Positions 7,884 through 29,713 of a stretch of DNA of 29,713 nt are shown piece after piece. The notes beneath the pieces are model-generated. The model saw nothing but the letters and a program-made list of their open reading frames with translations, ran no database searches and was not told the origin of the DNA. The DNA comes from a virus: positions 1 to 29,713 of IMG/VR virus record IMGVR_UViG_3300001589_000101; one strand, 5' to 3'. The translations under genes and the position numbers were made by a program. Position 1 is the first letter of the stretch. Each line of letters begins with the position of its first letter.

Positions 7884-8303
7884 ATGCCGCAATGGAAACG
7901 GCCTAACTACAAGGAGAAACAATCACACAATCTGTGGACAAGGTACAGGATAACTGTCGAAGAATACGAAAGACTAGTTAGGGGAAGCAAGGGTCTTTGC
8001 GAAGTATGTAAAACCAAAAAGGCCAGAGTAATAGATCATTGTCATGTTACAGGTGAAATCAGAGGGTACGTGTGTCATGCGTGCAACAGGGGATTAGGTT
8101 TACTAGGGGATACGGAGAAATCAGTTGAAAAAGCATACGAATACATCAAAAGAGAACGCACTCATGGAATACCCATACGACGTAGAGTCAGCGGGGGAAC
8201 ACGCAAAAAAACATTACAGGAAGATGATCGAAGACGGTCAGACCCCAAGGTTCGCAGAAATGTGCGCAACACAAATCGCACCCGCAACAAGCGGAACCGA
8301 TAG
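7884..8303 (+). CDS. Endonuclease VII-like HNH nuclease
   Basis: The product has 139 residues. The family (T4 gp49 type) cuts branched DNA such as Holliday junctions. The signature is complete: C39-x2-C42, then VIDHCHVTGEIRG (Asp 51, His 52, His 54), then C64-x2-C67-N68 and GLGLLGD. The four Cys bind structural zinc and the DH/N residues form the beta-beta-metal active site. The domain ends near residue 95. The remaining 45 residues are extremely Arg-rich and lie over the start of the next gene, so the tail may be shaped by the overlap or may help DNA binding. ATG directly follows the portal stop (TAAATG). Placement among packaging genes suits a role in clearing branches before packaging, but a homing-type HNH gene is possible. 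Confidence 0.9.
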   Translation: MPQWKRPNYKEKQSHNLWTRYRITVEEYERLVRGSKGLCEVCKTKKARVIDHCHVTGEIRGYVCHACNRGLGLLGDTEKSVEKAYEYIKRERTHGIPIRRRVSGGTRKKTLQEDDRRRSDPKVRRNVRNTNRTRNKRNR

Positions 8304-8697
8304 AGCGTTGATGCAAGGTCGTCTTAATAACGAGCAGTTTGACAAGATGCCTAAAGACCAAGCACAGAAGATGATAAAGGCATGCAAGGAGGCTGGCATT
8401 AATCCTAACGGAAAATGGTATTCGTCCGGTCTTGCAGACAAACGTGGAGTCCATGATCCTGAAGCGTGGGTCGATAGTCAGGCAGACGTTATGCGTGTTG
8501 CAGCCAAACGGAACTTGACTGTCAAGGGTGCAGTAAACGTACAAGGCAGAAAGATGCCACGTCCTAAGTCTCCTGTACTTAGCGACAGATTAACTAAGGA
8601 AATGATGAACGTCGAGAAACCTAACCACCCGACCATGAAACAAGGTGAACTCAAAGAGATGGTGCAAGAGAAATACGGTCGCAAAAGGCGTAACTAA
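8164..8697 (+). CDS. Conserved phage protein of unknown function before the adaptor
   Basis: The product has 177 residues from ATG 8164. A TTG at 8125, with GGAG at about 8114-8117, would add 13 residues and is a serious alternative. The sequence is helical and polar: AGEHAKKHYRKMIEDG, then TPRFAEMCATQIAPATSGTDRALM, a middle helix, an ASN-Gly-like loop with GKWYSSGLADKRGVHDPEAWV, and VKGAVNVQG. I recall similar proteins with a TPRMAEM...APxxxTD...F pattern and an ending ExxGWxxxGxVxV from uncultured phage structural modules, in the same place. The role is not known. It overlaps the nuclease gene by 140 bases and ends with TAATG into the adaptor gene, so it is translated within this block. A minor virion protein is the most likely reading. 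Confidence 0.75.
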   Translation: MEYPYDVESAGEHAKKHYRKMIEDGQTPRFAEMCATQIAPATSGTDRALMQGRLNNEQFDKMPKDQAQKMIKACKEAGINPNGKWYSSGLADKRGVHDPEAWVDSQADVMRVAAKRNLTVKGAVNVQGRKMPRPKSPVLSDRLTKEMMNVEKPNHPTMKQGELKEMVQEKYGRKRRN

Positions 8698-21180: not shown

Positions 21181-22392
21181 ATGCCAACTTCCGTAAAGAT
21201 CACAGACCTACCGGCTATTACTAGCATCCAGCGTGGTGACCTTATCCCGGTGGTTGATGAGTCGCAGACGCAGACAAACAAAGCAACGCTCGGTCAAGTC
21301 AAAGACATGGAGTGTGGTGCTAACACTGTAGTTAATACTTCAATTGCTGACGCTGCCGTTACTGCAAATAAAACTGGATTTTTGACTAACGACAAAATTG
21401 CAGTTGCAACATCCGCACACCCGCAACTCGGTACAGCAGGCGTAACCAACTCGACTTCAAATGCAGACGGCACATTTAATGGTCGAGAGATTCAATGTAC
21501 TCCTTATATACAGGCATTGTTTGCATCTGCCAACGGCCCCGCAGCAAGAGCGTACTTAGATGCTTTGCAGTCAACAAACAATCCTACCTTTACTGGTCAG
21601 ATATTTGCTGCTGACGGAACTGAATCATTGCCGTCGTATACGTTTACAAACAACCCGAATACAGGGATGTACCTAAGTCAAAACAATGTTCTCGGATTTA
21701 GTTCTGAAGATATTGAAGTTGTAGAAATTAGTCCTACTGGATTTCGTTCTCGTATCGCCACGTCTGGTGGAACTTACGTTGGAACGTATCCGCACTTTGG
21801 CGTTCGGGCATGGGTATCGTTTAGCGCAACTGTTGGTGCTGTAAGATATATTCAGAATCCTCACACGATTGCTAGTCTTGTAGGTCTTTGGCCCGGAACT
21901 ATTTACAAGACCGCTGCGAACATCACAAAGATTAACGAGGCTGTTGGCAATACCAACTCCGATGAGTTTATTACTCTTACGGATCGCGGCAGTAGAGTAG
22001 GAGTATTCAACGCTCAAAGTGGATACTCTGGTCAACGAGATGACGGTCGTTATAACTACACCTCTCCGGGGGATAACTTTCATTACAATTGGAATGGAAC
22101 GTCTTGGGGTACAGTCGGCCCATCAGCACCATCCAACTGGATTGGTTCTCTTGCTATTGAGACTAACGCTAGCCTAAGTGTTGAAAGCGGTGGCAATGTA
22201 GCCACTGTTACAGTCACGGGAAGTGTGTACAAAATCCAATTTATAGAGGCTATGCCTGACCTCAAGTACTGTGTTGTTGGGGCGAGCGGTATAAGTGGTC
22301 GTGTTGATATAGTAAGCCGAAATCAGAACTACGTTGAAGTACAGGTTTCGGGAACTTTAACTAGCCCAATATGCGTAGCGGTATTGCAATAG
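21181..22392 (+). CDS. Tail fibre / receptor-binding protein 1
   Basis: The product has 403 residues. The N-terminus, VKITDLPAITSIQRGDLIPVVD, is a type found at the base of phage fibres and probably attaches to the virion. The fibre-like middle includes a short TNNPTFTGQI repeat, then a YTFTNNPNTGMYL module (153-165) of the D-x-x-TG-M/I kind common in fibres. A region at about 292-322 with SPGDNFHYNWNG is shared with the second fibre (23097-26714). The C-terminal 60 or so residues are beta-rich and end in SPICVAVLQ, a likely receptor-binding tip. ATG follows the previous stop by two bases, without a strong ribosome site (only weak AAGAG at about 21169-21173), so it may depend on the upstream gene. 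Stop TAG lies inside the ribosome site of the next gene. Confidence 0.82.
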   Translation: MPTSVKITDLPAITSIQRGDLIPVVDESQTQTNKATLGQVKDMECGANTVVNTSIADAAVTANKTGFLTNDKIAVATSAHPQLGTAGVTNSTSNADGTFNGREIQCTPYIQALFASANGPAARAYLDALQSTNNPTFTGQIFAADGTESLPSYTFTNNPNTGMYLSQNNVLGFSSEDIEVVEISPTGFRSRIATSGGTYVGTYPHFGVRAWVSFSATVGAVRYIQNPHTIASLVGLWPGTIYKTAANITKINEAVGNTNSDEFITLTDRGSRVGVFNAQSGYSGQRDDGRYNYTSPGDNFHYNWNGTSWGTVGPSAPSNWIGSLAIETNASLSVESGGNVATVTVTGSVYKIQFIEAMPDLKYCVVGASGISGRVDIVSRNQNYVEVQVSGTLTSPICVAVLQ

Positions 22393-23096: not shown

Positions 23097-26000
23097 ATGC
23101 CTATTGTCCAGCAGCGTAGAGGTACAGCAGCATCGTTACAAACAGTAACTCTTTCTGCTGGGCAAATCGCCTATGAAACCGATACCGGAAAAGTAAAAGT
23201 CGGTGACGGCACAACCGTGTACTCTTCACTTGAGTACATCACCGATGCGTCTAATATCGCAGACGGTTCTATAGCCACCAATCATATTGCTGATGGTGCT
23301 ATCAATAACTCTAAATTAGCAAATACATCTGTGTCCCTAGAGAAGATGCAGAATGATTCCGTCACTACCAATGCGCTACAGCCTGCGTCTGTGACGCATG
23401 AAAAACTTGCGCAAAACTCTGTAGACAGAACAAACATAATAGACGGCGAGGTCATTGGTGCTAAACTAGCGAACAATGCTGTATTAACACCACAGATTTA
23501 TGACGCAGCAGTAACCACAGCAAAGATTGCTGATGACGCTGTTACGTTTGCAAAGATGCAGGATGTTAATGCAAACACTTTATTAGGTGCAGTTAATGCT
23601 GGAGCGGTCACGCAGATTACCTGTGGGCAAGTCGGCAGGAATATCCTCGCAGGTAGCACTGCGGCTGATGTTCGCACCACCATTGGTGCTGTTGATCAGG
23701 GAACCGTTAATACATCTATAACGAATGCAGTGGCAGGTACGGCGAACATTGCAGACGATGCAGTCACCTATTCAAAAATGCAGGACACAACAAACGGTGG
23801 TTGTGTGCTTGGCAGAACAGGAAACTATGGGGTTTCAGCAGGCGGTGAAATACAAGAAATTGCTCTGTCTGATTATGCCCGAACTTATATCAACCAGACA
23901 TCAAAGGCTGGCGTAAAGAATGTATTAGGGTTTGTTGAACAAGCCGAGATTGATACTGCTATTACGAATTTAGTAGGCACTGCACCTGTTGTTCTAGATA
24001 CGTTAGGTGAAATAGCAACAGCGTTAAATAATGATCAAAATCTAGCAAGCACTCTATCTACTAGCATTGGCACAAATACAGCAAGTGCTGCCACAAATGC
24101 AGCAAATGTTGCCACTAACACTGGGAACATTAATACAAACATCGGCAACATCGCTGCCAATGCAGCCAACATTTCTACGAACATTACCGACATTGCCGCC
24201 AAGATGCCGCTTGCTGGCGGCACGTTCACAGGAAGCACTCTGCACAGTGGCCCTGCCATCGACGGTGCAAGTGCTATCGGTAACAGAATCATAGGAGGCG
24301 GGTCAAAAACAATTTACGACGACCCGTCTGGTGTAAACCGTGCAAAAATACGAGAAGTAGAAAGAGCAAGTAATTTTTCAGTACGGGTAGGCTCGGTGTC
24401 AAACACTGATCCCACTAACAGCCGAGTTAATTACCTTAGTCCCCATGACGACGTACACTACAACTGGAACGGCAGTGCTTGGGTCACAGTTCCTGCATAC
24501 GCAGGGAATTGGATTGGTCATTACGACGTAGACCCACTTATCCGATGGACTTCTGTATCTTCTAATGAAACAGGAGAGGAAACAGAGTTCGGCAAAATAC
24601 AGTTGTACGACGGTGGCACTTCCATTGCGGGCATGGGCGTTTCCCCAAGTAACTTTAACATTGGTACTAAAGGTGGAATCAATTTCTCCATATACACCAA
24701 TGGTGCTTTACGCACTAGATACAGCAGCAACGGAAATGTAGACCATTCAGCAGGCACACATACTTTTGCTGGTGATGTTACCTCAAGCACCACCGTATCT
24801 GCCGTATCGTTTTTGGCAGGGAACGGATCATCGACCGCAGCAAGTTATGGCTTCACGGGTGATACAAACACAGGCATGTTTTGGAACGGATCGACCGGCC
24901 TAAATCTTGTGTGGAATGGCTCAGGGATTCAGGTCGCTTCTGCACACATCAATGCAGAAAAAAGAATCCTTGTTCCTACTGGAACACAGGCAGCCCCATC
25001 AATCGCACAGGCCGGAAACGATGACACTGGAATTAGTTTTGGTTCCGTAGGTGCAAACCAGATCAACCTGAACGTGGCTGGTGGTGCAAAGGTTTCCATT
25101 AACCCAACAGCAACCTATCTTGCTGGGCTTGTTCAGTTCAATGGGACGATCACGGACGGCACAACTACAAAAACCGCAGCAGAACTCATGGCGGCAATAT
25201 CACCAGCGGGTGGGTCAGTCCAAGTTAATGGGTATGGAACAGCAATAGACCCAGCGTTTGAGATAGAACACACCGTTGACGGCACAGGTTTTTACTCGCC
25301 GTCCAGCACGGTCAATGGTGGTAACAGTGCTGGCTATGGCTTCGCAATTTCTGCGGCACACAATCACGTTGCAGAGTTTGGTTACAAGTCTCACATTGGT
25401 AACGGTAGACCAACTATATATGGAGGGGCTGCGGCAGCACTCCTTGAGTTGAACGGAAACTCACGAAGGGGTTCGTTGTTTGGCTACAACACCTATGCCA
25501 CTTCTGCGTCAAACGCAAACGCAGCCATTGGTGGTGAGTTCCTTTGCATAGCGCAAGGCGGCACATCAGCAAATAGCCCCAAAGGGTTCAAGGCAAAACT
25601 CCAGTCGCAATCTGCTAATGGAAGCAGTGCTGTTGGTGGTCACTTTGAATTATCTCTGGAATCAGTAACCGGATCGTGGGGCAATGCCTACGGTGTGCAT
25701 TGTGAGTTAGGCATAGCAAGCAGTTGCACAGGCACACTCACAGGGACAGCAGCAGCACTTTTCATTGACGCAGTTGGCAAGACTTCTAACGCGACGTACA
25801 CCCAAACGGATGGTGTAGATCGGGTATACGCCATCTTCCAGACCGGCAACTCCGACAACAACAGATTTGACGGTACTTCGTGGTTCAGGAACAACGTACA
25901 CATCGTAGACAATGGTGACCTAGATATATCTACTGGCGTAGGCCAGATAATACTATCCAACGGAAGTGCGAATGATCCAGCCATTTGCTTTGGTGCAGAC

Positions 26001-26714
26001 ACAAACACGGGTATTAAACGAAACACAAACGGTAACTTGGATTTTGTTACCAATGCAACCAACAGATTAAGCATCACTACAGCAGGTGACATACACACGT
26101 CGTCTGCTGGCACTGTCTTTCTTAACAACCATGTAACAATCGGCAACACGCTGACTGTAACAAACGGTATGAACGTCAGCGAACTAGCACAATCTGGTGC
26201 TTCCACTGGTCAGACCATTCAGTGGGATGGTTCAGCGTGGGTTCCTGCCACCGTCAGTGGCGGTGGTGGTGGTGCAACCACAGTAGGTGGCTTGTCTGAT
26301 GTGACAGTAAGTAGTGTTGCGGACAACAACTTGTTGAGATACGACTCAGCAAACTCCAGATGGGAAAACTATAGCCCTGATGGATTCTCTTCTGCTTCGG
26401 GTGGTAACACAGCAATCAATCTGGCAGATGGAAACAAGATACACAAATGGACTTGTGCTTCTTCTGGAGTACAGGCGGTAATACTACTGAACGTACCAAG
26501 TGGTTCTGGAGTTTCTTGTTCTTTTACCTTAGTAATAGAGTATCCCGGCAGCGGAACAACAACTGCCATTGTCCAGTGGCCTTCTTCATTTAAATGGCCC
26601 GGAGGTGTTGCCCCAACACTCACAAACACTGGCGGCAAGCAGGACACGTTTACATTCTTGTCGCTCGACAATGGTGGTTCGTGGCTTGCTCATGTCGGTG
26701 GTCAAAACTTCTAG
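23097..26714 (+). CDS. Long tail fibre / receptor-binding protein 2
   Basis: The product has 1205 residues. Residues 1-48 (VQQRRGTAASLQTVTLSAGQ, then IAYETDTGKVKVGDGTTVYSS) match the small N-terminal domain seen in major-tropism-determinant and other phage fibres. A decapeptide-repeat zone follows (54-153), then a duplicated IADDAVT segment (144-291) and a heptad-repeat segment (326-367). Next come PLAGGTFTGS, a SPHDDVHYNWNG region shared with fibre 1, and fibre modules with D-x-TG-M/I cores at about 24838, 25020 and 25982. The C-terminal domain has VQWPSSFKWPGGVAP and ends GGQNF, a type often found at fibre tips. Fibres of this kind are trimers that recognise the host surface. It ends in TAGGAGG, coupling to the next gene. 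Confidence 0.88.
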   Translation: MPIVQQRRGTAASLQTVTLSAGQIAYETDTGKVKVGDGTTVYSSLEYITDASNIADGSIATNHIADGAINNSKLANTSVSLEKMQNDSVTTNALQPASVTHEKLAQNSVDRTNIIDGEVIGAKLANNAVLTPQIYDAAVTTAKIADDAVTFAKMQDVNANTLLGAVNAGAVTQITCGQVGRNILAGSTAADVRTTIGAVDQGTVNTSITNAVAGTANIADDAVTYSKMQDTTNGGCVLGRTGNYGVSAGGEIQEIALSDYARTYINQTSKAGVKNVLGFVEQAEIDTAITNLVGTAPVVLDTLGEIATALNNDQNLASTLSTSIGTNTASAATNAANVATNTGNINTNIGNIAANAANISTNITDIAAKMPLAGGTFTGSTLHSGPAIDGASAIGNRIIGGGSKTIYDDPSGVNRAKIREVERASNFSVRVGSVSNTDPTNSRVNYLSPHDDVHYNWNGSAWVTVPAYAGNWIGHYDVDPLIRWTSVSSNETGEETEFGKIQLYDGGTSIAGMGVSPSNFNIGTKGGINFSIYTNGALRTRYSSNGNVDHSAGTHTFAGDVTSSTTVSAVSFLAGNGSSTAASYGFTGDTNTGMFWNGSTGLNLVWNGSGIQVASAHINAEKRILVPTGTQAAPSIAQAGNDDTGISFGSVGANQINLNVAGGAKVSINPTATYLAGLVQFNGTITDGTTTKTAAELMAAISPAGGSVQVNGYGTAIDPAFEIEHTVDGTGFYSPSSTVNGGNSAGYGFAISAAHNHVAEFGYKSHIGNGRPTIYGGAAAALLELNGNSRRGSLFGYNTYATSASNANAAIGGEFLCIAQGGTSANSPKGFKAKLQSQSANGSSAVGGHFELSLESVTGSWGNAYGVHCELGIASSCTGTLTGTAAALFIDAVGKTSNATYTQTDGVDRVYAIFQTGNSDNNRFDGTSWFRNNVHIVDNGDLDISTGVGQIILSNGSANDPAICFGADTNTGIKRNTNGNLDFVTNATNRLSITTAGDIHTSSAGTVFLNNHVTIGNTLTVTNGMNVSELAQSGASTGQTIQWDGSAWVPATVSGGGGGATTVGGLSDVTVSSVADNNLLRYDSANSRWENYSPDGFSSASGGNTAINLADGNKIHKWTCASSGVQAVILLNVPSGSGVSCSFTLVIEYPGSGTTTAIVQWPSSFKWPGGVAPTLTNTGGKQDTFTFLSLDNGGSWLAHVGGQNF
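23256..23555 (+). repeat. Ten tandem decapeptide repeats in fibre 2
   Basis: Residues 54-153 consist of ten consecutive 10-residue units of the form [I/L/M]-x-x-x-[S/A/E]-[V/I]-x-x-x-[K/H/N/Q/A], for example IADGSIATNH, IADGAINNSK, LANTSVSLEK, LAQNSVDRTN and IADDAVTFAK. The period is exact, so a regular repeating fold such as a triple-stranded beta shaft is likely in the fibre stalk. An eleventh partial unit (MQD) follows. Confidence 0.9.
24072..24197 (+). repeat. Six tandem heptad repeats (likely coiled coil) in fibre 2
   Basis: Residues 326-367 form six 7-residue units: TNTASAA, TNAANVA, TNTGNIN, TNIGNIA, ANAANIS and TNITDIA. The position-6 residue is mostly V or I and position 3 is A, T or I, which is the spacing of a trimeric coiled coil with Asn/Ala-rich faces. 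It precedes the PLAGGTFTG motif seen in many fibres. Confidence 0.85.
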
Positions 26715-26718
26715 GAGG
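26713..26718 (+). promoter_or_regulatory. Ribosome binding site that fixes the start at 26723
   Basis: AGGAGG lies four bases before ATG 26723 and overlaps the stop of fibre 2 (TAG 26712-26714). An earlier in-frame ATG at 26594 lies within the fibre coding sequence without a comparable site, so the true start is taken as 26723. Confidence 0.85.
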
Positions 26719-26722
26719 CGAC

Positions 26723-27661
26723 ATGCAGGGTATACAAGCAGGTCTGATGGCAGCAGAGGGCGAGCGTAAAAGGCGTGATCAATTCGCAGATCGCAACCCC
26801 GGCTTAATTACAAGGCCCGGAATGGGTCGCACAAGACCTGCCTCAACTTTTACTGTGACTGTGTACACACGGAAGCAGTCTAAGTACCAAGGCTTCAGCA
26901 TGATGCCCTCGGATTATCGGGCCACGTCACATGAGCCGGGTGCTAACTTAACCGCAACAGTCACGAATTATGGCGAGGCCGGAAAACTTGTCGTACCTGC
27001 CGGAACGATGATTGATTGTATTGAGATAAAAGTTAAAGCAGGAATGCCTATACATCCAGACTTCATTCGTGCTACGGGCGATGAGAAAGATATGAGGCGG
27101 CATAAGAGTTTAAATTACTACAAAAGAGGTAGCCGTTCATATCACACAGAAATGGCTAGGTGGTACTACCCTACTACAACTGACGCTGCGGACATTACTA
27201 ATGCAACAAGTGGCAATCGGTTTTCTAACAGTTGGACTTTAACTAAAAGGTGGGGAGGTCAGTATGCGATTACTCAGCCCGTGTGTACTTTGGTTAAAGG
27301 AAGCAGTGTATTTGACGGGCAGACGTACAGGATATGGGATGCGTACAGGGGTTTGACGGGCTGGTATAACCAAGGTGCGAACGACTTTTATTACAGCGGA
27401 AGAGTTGGAAATCGCTCGCAGTTGTGGTACTGGGCAGATGATCAATACGAAACTGATTTCCTAAGACAACGCACCCTTGCAGCAGATGTACGAGGTTCGC
27501 TATACACCCAGTCTTATTGGTATCAGTACTTCCACCCAAGGATGGTAGGCAATCACTTCTTAACTACCGCATATAACTCTGGATTACCACGAATAGTGAA
27601 CTTTGATTTAAGCCCAATAGAAGCGGGCAAGCGTTTTGTCATTCAGCAGGAGTTTGAATAA
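26723..27661 (+). CDS. Tyr/Trp-rich fibre-block protein of unknown function
   Basis: The product has 312 residues from ATG 26723. The N-terminus is basic and helical (MQGIQAGLMAAEGERKRRDQ). A beta-rich part follows (STFTVTVYTRKQSKYQGFSM; ANLTATVTNYGEAGKLVVPAG). The later half is unusually rich in Tyr and Trp (DAYRGLTGWYNQGANDFYYS; QLWYWADDQYET; SYWYQYFHPRMVGN). Aromatic-rich stretches are often seen in carbohydrate-binding or tail-tip surfaces. No known family was recognised. It follows fibre 2 as the middle gene of the second cassette and shares one base with the next gene (TAATG). A minor tail or fibre-attached protein is the best guess. Confidence 0.78.
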   Translation: MQGIQAGLMAAEGERKRRDQFADRNPGLITRPGMGRTRPASTFTVTVYTRKQSKYQGFSMMPSDYRATSHEPGANLTATVTNYGEAGKLVVPAGTMIDCIEIKVKAGMPIHPDFIRATGDEKDMRRHKSLNYYKRGSRSYHTEMARWYYPTTTDAADITNATSGNRFSNSWTLTKRWGGQYAITQPVCTLVKGSSVFDGQTYRIWDAYRGLTGWYNQGANDFYYSGRVGNRSQLWYWADDQYETDFLRQRTLAADVRGSLYTQSYWYQYFHPRMVGNHFLTTAYNSGLPRIVNFDLSPIEAGKRFVIQQEFE

Positions 27662-28338
27662 TGCCAACATATATTGCACAGGCTGGTAGCCCTCCAGTCG
27701 TACTTGATGAGTTACGAAACATTGCAACTCAATACTCGTTCCCTCCAGAGGAACTCACCTCACTGTCGGACGTAGCCTCAATCCTTACTGCTGTTAGTTA
27801 CGCCGAGTGTACTATCACAAATGCTGAATCAGACATAACGCCTGCGTTCAACCAAAGAGTTCAACTTGGGAATGCCGCCAGTGTGGGCGGTAGCCTGCAA
27901 GCCTCTTACGCTGCTGTTAGTCTCACGGGAGACCTCAGCACCTCTGCATTGCAAAGACACAAGGATGACAAGAAAAGCGAAATTGAAGCAGACACATCGG
28001 CTAGGCAGCAAGACGCAACTAACTTCCCAAAGAGTAGCGGTGGGGCTAACGTCAGCCTGAAGTATGACGACGAAACTCGGGGTTACCTAGCACAGGTATT
28101 GCAGGTAGCACAGAACGCCAACACTGGTGCGACTATCAAGGACGCTGCTGGCACAAGCGTCACTCTTTCATTAGCAGAACTCAAGTATGTCTGTGCTGGA
28201 TTAATTAGCACCAACCAAACTCTTGTGGAAGCAAGGAATAAAGCAGCAATCGACATTGACGTTGCCACCACCAACACGGCTGTGACTAGCGTCAAAACTA
28301 CGTTCACAACTTCGTACCCTCCACCAAGCGGATCATGA
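27661..28338 (+). CDS. DUF4376-like fibre-associated protein (large copy)
   Basis: The product has 225 residues. The first 95 are beta/alanine-rich (PTYIAQAGSPPVV, then VGGSLQASYAAVSLTGD). Residues 98-205 match the DUF4376 pattern recalled for phage fibre neighbours: RHKDDKKSEIEADTSARQQ, a strand region, then TIKDAAGTSVTLSLAEL and a long Ala-rich helix (NQTLVEARNKAAIDID). The same end motif occurs in the gene at 22712-23095. The C-terminus is Ser/Pro-rich (TTSYPPPSGS). It joins the previous gene by TAATG and the sulfotransferase by ATGA. The function is unknown, but two copies of the domain beside two fibres suggest fibre assembly or attachment. Confidence 0.68.
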   Translation: MPTYIAQAGSPPVVLDELRNIATQYSFPPEELTSLSDVASILTAVSYAECTITNAESDITPAFNQRVQLGNAASVGGSLQASYAAVSLTGDLSTSALQRHKDDKKSEIEADTSARQQDATNFPKSSGGANVSLKYDDETRGYLAQVLQVAQNANTGATIKDAAGTSVTLSLAELKYVCAGLISTNQTLVEARNKAAIDIDVATTNTAVTSVKTTFTTSYPPPSGS

Positions 28339-28913
28339 GAAAGTTTAACCGACTATTCGGTATCGGGCCTTCTAAGAGCGGTACGCATTCTCTTAACGAT
28401 GCATTGCACAGGGTCGGTCTAGACTCAACCCATCTTGGTTCGGACGGTCACTACAAACGTGACATACATAAACAAGACGATTGGTTTTCTAGGCACATGC
28501 ACATAAACCATACAGAGGGCAGAGACATTCTTGATGGAGTGCCGCACCAGTGCGTATCAGATTGGCCTGTCAGCCAGTACTTTAAAGAACTCGACGAACA
28601 GAATCCAGACAGTCTATTCATTCTGACGTACAGAAACCCTGACGACATCGCGCAGAGTTGGTGCAGGATGTGTATGAAAATGGGCTTCGCAAACAACAAC
28701 CCGGACTATCTAAAAAAACTTTGGCAAGTCAGGCAGCACTATGACGCTGTGTTTAAATATTTCCGTGACAGAGCAAATGATATTCTCATGCTGGACACAG
28801 TTCACGGAGCAAAGACAAACATGTCTAAGTTGTGTGAGTTCCTGCGTATAGACACGCCTGAAGATACTACGTGGCCCCACTCATTCAATCATCAGGATTG
28901 GTACGCACCATGA
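28335..28913 (+). CDS. Sulfotransferase family protein (P-loop)
   Basis: The product has 192 residues. The family moves sulfate from PAPS to a hydroxyl or amine acceptor. The N-terminal P-loop is clear: FGIGPSKSGTHSLNDAL (8-24), with Lys 14 in the 5'-phosphosulfate site. The second signature is SDWPVSQYFKEL (75-86) followed by SLFILTYRNPDDIAQSW (93-109), with Arg 100 and Ser 108 in the place of the 3'-phosphate-binding site. DWPxxxxxxEL and LTxRxxxxxxxS are typical of the Sulfotransfer_4 type. The C-terminal LCEFLRIDTPEDTTWPHSFNH is also usual. The start overlaps the previous stop (ATGA) and the end overlaps the glycosyltransferase (ATGA). The acceptor is unknown: a virion glycan, a host surface glycan or a lipid are all possible. 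The length is on the short side of the family. Confidence 0.88.
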   Translation: MRKFNRLFGIGPSKSGTHSLNDALHRVGLDSTHLGSDGHYKRDIHKQDDWFSRHMHINHTEGRDILDGVPHQCVSDWPVSQYFKELDEQNPDSLFILTYRNPDDIAQSWCRMCMKMGFANNNPDYLKKLWQVRQHYDAVFKYFRDRANDILMLDTVHGAKTNMSKLCEFLRIDTPEDTTWPHSFNHQDWYAP

Positions 28914-29713
28914 TAGCATCAGTAATACTCGCATCGTTCTCTCCCGTTGACGCAGAGTTACCTAAGCAACACTTTCAGTCCACAATGGAGTACCTGCTTG
29001 GTCAAGGTCTAGACCTAGAAGTATGCGTAGCACAGGTTGTACGCAAGGGTAAGGAGCCAGTGCCAACACACGGTGCTGCTACCTCTCTTGTATTCGAGAG
29101 CGAAGACAAAGTGTTCTTCAAGGAAAACCTTTGGAACCTAGCAGCAGCACACGCGATCACAGACAAATTTATTTTCATTGACGCTGATCTGTATTACAAA
29201 GATAAAGATTGGCTCGATCAGTTATCTGCCGCTCTTGACGAATACGATGTAATACAGCCATTCGACATTGCTAACTGGGATATGAAGAACGGCGAAGTCA
29301 ATCCGACAGTAAGAAAGCCCTCGTGGTTTAATGCTATCCTAAACGGTGGCGCACCACTAACCGAAACGTATCACCCCGGATTCGGATTTGCTATGACCCG
29401 CAAGCACTACGATGCAATCGGAGGATTCTACGAACACGGATGTATGGGCGAGGGTGACCACATGTTTTGCGTTGCACACACTCCACAGAAGCAAGTTGAA
29501 TACGTCTTACAGTTTAGCCTCAATGCTTTGAATGATCCTGATTCTGGTATTCACCCAGACATACGCTCACACTGGAAGAATTTAGCACACCACTTCCTGT
29601 CACAAGACTACATCGACTACAAGGCCAACATACAGTCAATGGACTTCAAGGCGGGAGTGCCAAGGAATCTCAATATATTCCACAGATGGCACGGACTCCC
29701 AGCAAAAAGACAG
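28910..29713 (+). CDS. GT-A glycosyltransferase, 3' truncated by the window
   Basis: The frame is open from ATG 28910 to the last base with no stop, giving 268 residues. Residues FIFIDADLYYKD (87-98) hold the D-x-D metal and nucleotide-sugar site (Asp 91, Asp 93) of GT-A enzymes. GFGFAMTRKHYDAIGGFYE (157-175) and GCMGEGDHMF (177-186) match the acceptor and general-base region of galactosyltransferase-like members, where an acidic residue in GEGD is the likely catalytic base. The enzyme would add a sugar from a nucleotide-sugar donor. The ATGA overlap with the sulfotransferase shows coupled translation, so the two probably act on the same product. Neither the sugar nor the acceptor is known. 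The C-terminal region beyond DADLYY resembles family members with an N-terminal catalytic half. Confidence 0.85.
   Translation, partial: MIASVILASFSPVDAELPKQHFQSTMEYLLGQGLDLEVCVAQVVRKGKEPVPTHGAATSLVFESEDKVFFKENLWNLAAAHAITDKFIFIDADLYYKDKDWLDQLSAALDEYDVIQPFDIANWDMKNGEVNPTVRKPSWFNAILNGGAPLTETYHPGFGFAMTRKHYDAIGGFYEHGCMGEGDHMFCVAHTPQKQVEYVLQFSLNALNDPDSGIHPDIRSHWKNLAHHFLSQDYIDYKANIQSMDFKAGVPRNLNIFHRWHGLPAKRQ

Follow-up and report, generated by a model that had tools for sequence, protein, structure and literature searches.

The glycosyltransferases with which mycobacteriophages reportedly glycosylate their virions, said to have been described by Freeman et al. 2023, have no sulfotransferase partner known to us, nor are we aware of any phage whose virion bears a sulfated glycan. 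They are encoded by tailed phages, as is the glycosyltransferase considered here, for which we infer a target on the virion.

Phage sulfotransferases have been reported as auxiliary genes in OM43 phages and in Synechococcus phage S-SRM01 (PMC10580990), in viruses from glaciers (PMC8290583), and also in PMC10829341. The OM43-phage paper calls the function of the sulfotransferase unclear; its proteins are described as Sulfotransfer_3, whereas the one described below belongs to PF17784 (PMC10580990). An earlier note on the DNA analysed here had considered a sulfotransferase encoded with fibre genes to be unusual. Phage-encoded sulfotransferases are themselves not new, but the available portions of two of these sources (PMC10580990, PMC8290583) describe none with a fibre linkage or a glycosyltransferase partner. 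In the literature searched, no pairing or fusion of a glycosyltransferase with a sulfotransferase, and no link to APS kinase, was found for phages.

The window, by which is meant the whole stretch of DNA analysed, is the complete IMG/VR record IMGVR_UViG_3300001589_000101, from an uncultured bacterial virus. It is linear, 29,713 bases long, and probably a fragment of the virus genome. Because the window is the entire record, the contig could not be extended, and the nearest relative, L003 (a 47,440-base record, G001), was used as a proxy for the region downstream. The late genes all have the same orientation; in order, they encode the capsid, the terminase, the portal, a protein of 1,921 residues and then the fibres. 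At the 3' end of the window are a DUF4376-like gene, a sulfotransferase (here called ST) and a glycosyltransferase (GT). The features discussed below are as follows.

23097..26714, + strand: large tail fibre gene, 1,205 residues; matches PHROG tail fibre families with E down to 4e-15
26415..29713, + strand: exchanged cassette, starting in the part of the large fibre gene that encodes the C-terminal tip and including GT; blastn against L003/G001, right border beyond the contig
26723..27661, + strand: fibre-block gene without a family, 312 residues; 84% identical in L003
27661..28338, + strand: DUF4376-like gene, 225 residues, Ser/Thr/Pro-rich C-terminus; PF14301 match below the cut-off
28335..28913, + strand: sulfotransferase ST, 192 residues; PF17784 E 4.4e-19; AF2 pLDDT 83; SgdX2 Z 16.3
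28359..28394, + strand: predicted 5'-phosphosulfate (PAPS) loop of ST, GIGPSKSGTHSL, containing KSGTHSL
28560..28562, + strand: Asp76 of ST
28623..28658, + strand: predicted 3'-phosphate motif of ST, LTYRNPDDIAQS, LTYR(100)NPDDIAQS(108)
28910..29713, + strand: glycosyltransferase GT, GT-A fold, cut by the contig end; PF00535 borderline, fold Z 14.6, complete relative in L003
29180..29188, + strand: DxD motif of GT, DAD, predicted nucleotide-sugar/metal site
29447..29458, + strand: GEGD of GT, candidate catalytic region

Some other features of the record may be mentioned. The fibre genes at 21181-22392 and 23097-26714 are homologous to one another. An endonuclease VII-type gene (PF02945, 7884-8303) shares 179 bases with the next gene (8125-8697), which is read in a different frame. 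In G001 (L009/L010, about 27109-34210) the homologous counterpart of the 1,921-residue protein is split into several open reading frames, through either assembly errors or genuine breaks. Another virus record, L014 (7,825 bases), has a terminase identical to that of the window and is probably the same virus again.

ST matches PF17784 (Sulfotransfer_4) with 69.6 bits against a cut-off of 22.8, and relatives score 75.3 and 61.0; the P-loop protein thus falls within the sulfotransferase family and not outside it. Both predicted PAPS signatures are intact. The core residues of the 5'-phosphosulfate loop are conserved in an alignment of 33 members, and the 3'-phosphate motif retains R100 and S108. 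Asp76 is invariant in the 33 sequences and aligns with Asp91 of the schistosome enzyme SmSULT, which bonds the accepting hydroxyl (PMC4618941). The AF2 model, generated from the 33-sequence alignment, superimposes on SgdX2 with an rmsd of 3.5 over 172 aligned residues, indicating a sulfotransferase fold, and SgdX2, Cpz8 and SmSULT all match it above every kinase, the best of which reaches a Z of about 11. ST therefore shares with these three PF17784 enzymes the profile, the PAPS loops, the acceptor-side aspartate and the fold. It differs from them in its length of 192 residues, having fewer residues from the 3'-phosphate motif to the C-terminal part, in its long branch, and in its location in a phage fibre cassette. 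Judged by profile and modelled fold, ST is a PF17784 sulfotransferase, which would use PAPS. It sits on a long branch of its own, and for this reason its position in the tree is not fixed. A hydropathy scan found no membrane segments in ST, and a search of INPHARED phages found no match to it, nor anything convincing even at E 10. A relative on a Roseobacter litoralis plasmid is set among glycosyltransferases and an ABC transporter.

GT starts with an ATG at 28910 and its frame remains open to 29713, so that 268 residues are visible; the complete relative in L003 has 327, and about 60 residues are thus absent from the window. The match to PF00535 is 22.8 bits against a cut-off of 23.3 (24.1 in a six-frame search), and the relatives in L003 and L004 fall below the cut-off. 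The DxD motif (DAD/DSD), an HPGF stretch, a G-x-GD and a C-terminal HxWHG are all kept in four relatives. A model of the complete L003 protein (pLDDT 71) matches 6p61 with an rmsd of 3.0 over 179 aligned residues and resembles many inverting GT2 enzymes, which indicates a GT-A fold. GT is, on its predicted fold and motifs, a GT2-like GT-A glycosyltransferase. It too has no membrane segments in a hydropathy scan, its only match in INPHARED phages is a weak one to a Xanthomonas jumbo phage protein, and the six-frame search found no other GT2 gene. The enzyme identities proposed in the earlier note are thus borne out, ST by profile, motifs and fold and GT by fold and motifs, and both reading frames, with their KSGTHSL, DWP...LTYR, DAD and GEGD motifs, are present as listed above.

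ATGA overlaps join the DUF4376-like gene to ST (28335-28338) and ST to GT (28910-28913). Four-base overlaps of the same kind occur at 5 of the 25 gene junctions in the window, and the overlaps are therefore evidence for an operon with shared transcription, and nothing beyond this. The linkage emphasised previously holds as joint transcription with the fibre genes. Near the pair no promoter or terminator was found above chance, and no structured RNA was found. The upstream gene bears a resemblance to DUF4376 that falls short of membership (PF14301 E 0.002, 18.9 bits, cut-off 25). It accompanies GT in both G001 and G002, and on composition its Ser/Thr/Pro-rich C-terminus is a candidate acceptor.

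The same pair is found in relatives. L003 carries the DUF4376-like gene, ST and GT in the order seen in the window, with identities of 96, 89 and 86%. Downstream of them are a 649-residue gene, a 223-residue gene and then a conserved 1,265-residue protein; the operon therefore runs on past GT, and the pair lies inside it and not, as had been thought, at the end of the tail-fibre block. In L004 (32,881 bases, G002) the DUF4376-like gene is joined straight to GT and ST is absent, from which it follows that sulfation is not obligatory. The survey comprised 44 virus records, retrieved because they share the terminase or carry the pair; in these records, many of which are fragments, profiles detected the DUF4376-like gene and GT only in L003 and L004, and ST only in L003. 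The cassette flanked by fibre genes on one side and the 1,265-residue protein on the other varies widely across the phage group, and no Pfam enzymes were identified in its other cassettes, only fn3/lectin-type domains.

A more distant phage, L298, has two other gene families and parts of the fibre in common with the group. Here the fibre gene is joined by ATGA to GT (298 residues) and GT by ATGA to ST (200 residues), followed by tail-fibre/virion-like genes; a DUF4376-like gene was not seen in this phage. ST is 35% and GT 38% identical to the window proteins, and the gene order is swapped. That the two genes have stayed together despite this divergence and rearrangement argues strongly for a common function. 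They are not neighbours by chance, and the suggestion that relatives might never carry the two genes together does not apply.

The region from 26415 to the end of the contig aligns with L003/G001 as a single blastn alignment of 3,303 columns, with 86.4% identical DNA. Elsewhere the DNA identity between the window and L003 is mostly 66–77% over alignable genes (terminase TerL 70%, portal 69%). Synonymous divergence (dS) is 0.76 for ST and 1.04 for GT, and is saturated for terminase and portal. The higher identity and lower dS suggest that the fibre tip, the two genes after it, ST and GT were exchanged as one block. Against this nearest relative the dN/dS is 0.09 for ST and 0.08 for GT, indicating purifying selection on both. 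The block from the fibre tip through GT has thus most likely been exchanged as a unit and kept by selection.

When viral sequences were scanned with a wider ST alignment, 16 additional records emerged. Nine of these encode fusion proteins in which the ST domain follows a GT-A domain from a different family, Glyco_transf_7C in all nine. Using the fusion as query, 58 full-length fusion proteins were found on 58 IMG/VR contigs (L210-L283), with an ST part of the PF17784 type. Several of the contigs that carry ST have clear phage genes (terminase, DNA polymerase or endolysin). The fusions resemble the pair described here in combining a GT-A domain (Glyco_transf_7C / Glyco_tranf_2_2) with a PF17784-type sulfotransferase, and differ in being one polypeptide, in their other GT family, and in having a separate ST clade (support 100/99), outside which the window ST falls; the window enzymes, as two genes, are not members of the fusion family. 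Homology between the window GT and the fusion GT domain was not supported (hhalign E 0.085), and no full-length fusion was found in INPHARED.

APS kinase is the enzyme that makes PAPS, the sulfate donor. In five contigs (L231, L258, L260, L263, L269) it is encoded next or next-but-one downstream of the fusion, with matches of E 2e-47 to 6e-60, one having an internal stop; a sixth contig has a weaker partial match. Phages with this arrangement may supply their own sulfate donor. In a third lineage, L221, ST is located between two GT2 genes, and in another phage group (L215, L216, L217, L220, L223) it closely follows two genes that, as read from sequence, are epimerase-like. It may be added that two cyanobacterial contigs (L140, L174) seem to encode proteins in which a GT-like domain precedes a PF17784-type sulfotransferase domain, so that such fusions appear to be cellular too. 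Within four genes of the fusion, 17 contigs (L227, L229, L231, L232, L234, L248, L252, L257, L258 and others) have a member of a peptidase-like family, one of which matches phrog_19005, a family without an assigned function.

On the basis of these observations, we hypothesise that ST and GT form a glycan-decorating pair in an exchangeable tail-fibre-tip cassette, and that the sulfated glycan is most likely on the fibre or its tip; we give this reading a probability of about 0.5. Both enzymes would be soluble and expressed late, as part of the structural operon. GT would glycosylate an acceptor with a nucleotide sugar as donor, and ST would take sulfate from host-made PAPS and add it to the glycan made by GT, a choice of substrate that the natural fusions strengthen. 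Extension before sulfation, as proposed in the earlier note, would be the chemically natural order, but the arrangement of the genes is no guide to it, being reversed in L298. Late expression and co-exchange suggest that the likeliest acceptor would be a fibre or tip protein encoded in this cassette; one candidate is the Ser/Thr/Pro-rich C-terminus of the DUF4376-like product. The virion would thus bear a negatively charged sulfated glycan affecting receptor binding, spread from debris, or recognition. The pairs in L003 and L298, the cassette exchange, the purifying selection, the fusions, L221 and the R. litoralis plasmid all support this reading. Against the reading stand the GT without ST in L004/G002, the different GT family of the fusions, the failure to find APS kinase in the lineage of the window (G000-G002), and the lack of a second GT2 gene; L298, where the DUF4376-like gene was not seen, speaks against the candidate acceptor. 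The earlier idea of a sulfated glycan is supported; the suggestion that it marks infected cells is not.

Host glycans, too, can be the target of genes in a fibre cassette. The main rival, which we consider rather unlikely, is that the pair adds sugar and sulfate to a host surface glycan such as O-antigen or capsule, giving superinfection exclusion or preventing progeny from binding to debris; the pair would then travel with the fibre since both concern one receptor. Co-exchange with the fibre tip fits this equally well, and the R. litoralis relative of ST lies in a polysaccharide locus. However, expression from a late structural operon is late timing for exclusion, neither protein has a membrane segment, and the genes seen beside the pair included no membrane GT, flippase or exporter. 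Less probable again is that ST has a substrate unconnected with GT, either a metabolite or a protein tyrosine, and that the two are neighbours only because accessory genes collect at this spot. The sulfotransferase fold is indeed common to tyrosyl-protein and small-molecule enzymes, and GT occurs without ST, but the survival of the pair at 35% identity with its order swapped argues against independence, as do the natural GT-ST fusions of other phages and the APS kinase genes found near some of them.

Hypermodification of phage DNA with a sulfated sugar is very improbable. There are DNA-modifying phage GTs, and sulfotransferase-based nucleotide modification in phages has been mentioned (PMC10829341), but ST and GT belong to a fibre cassette away from the DNA genes, and no thymidylate synthase/dCMP hydroxymethylase-type gene (PF00303) was found in nine records including G001. 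We give as little credence to the view that these are still useless accessory genes, recently acquired from a host and present by drift or coincidence. Their GC3 (0.52 for ST, 0.49 for GT) is slightly above most of the window and their distribution is narrow, but a dN/dS of 0.08–0.09 at a dS near 1 makes drift unlikely, and recurrence in unrelated phages also speaks against it.

Returning to decoration of the fibre, since unrelated viruses also pair or fuse GT and ST, it is probable that phages make sulfated sugars, for which the tips of their own tails are the likeliest site. More tentatively, tailed phages could repeatedly have evolved a sugar-plus-sulfate module that gives virions a sulfated glycan, and that here moves with the fibre tip in receptor switching. 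It might take the form of separate genes in either order or of a single gene for a GT-ST fusion, in some cases accompanied by an APS kinase. The repeated tie to GT, the fusion, the swapped order, the co-exchange with the fibre tip and the APS kinase point to a specific and testable function, the making of sulfated glycans. A sulfated glycan on virions, if found, would represent a novel chemistry at the phage surface, bearing on receptor use and recognition.
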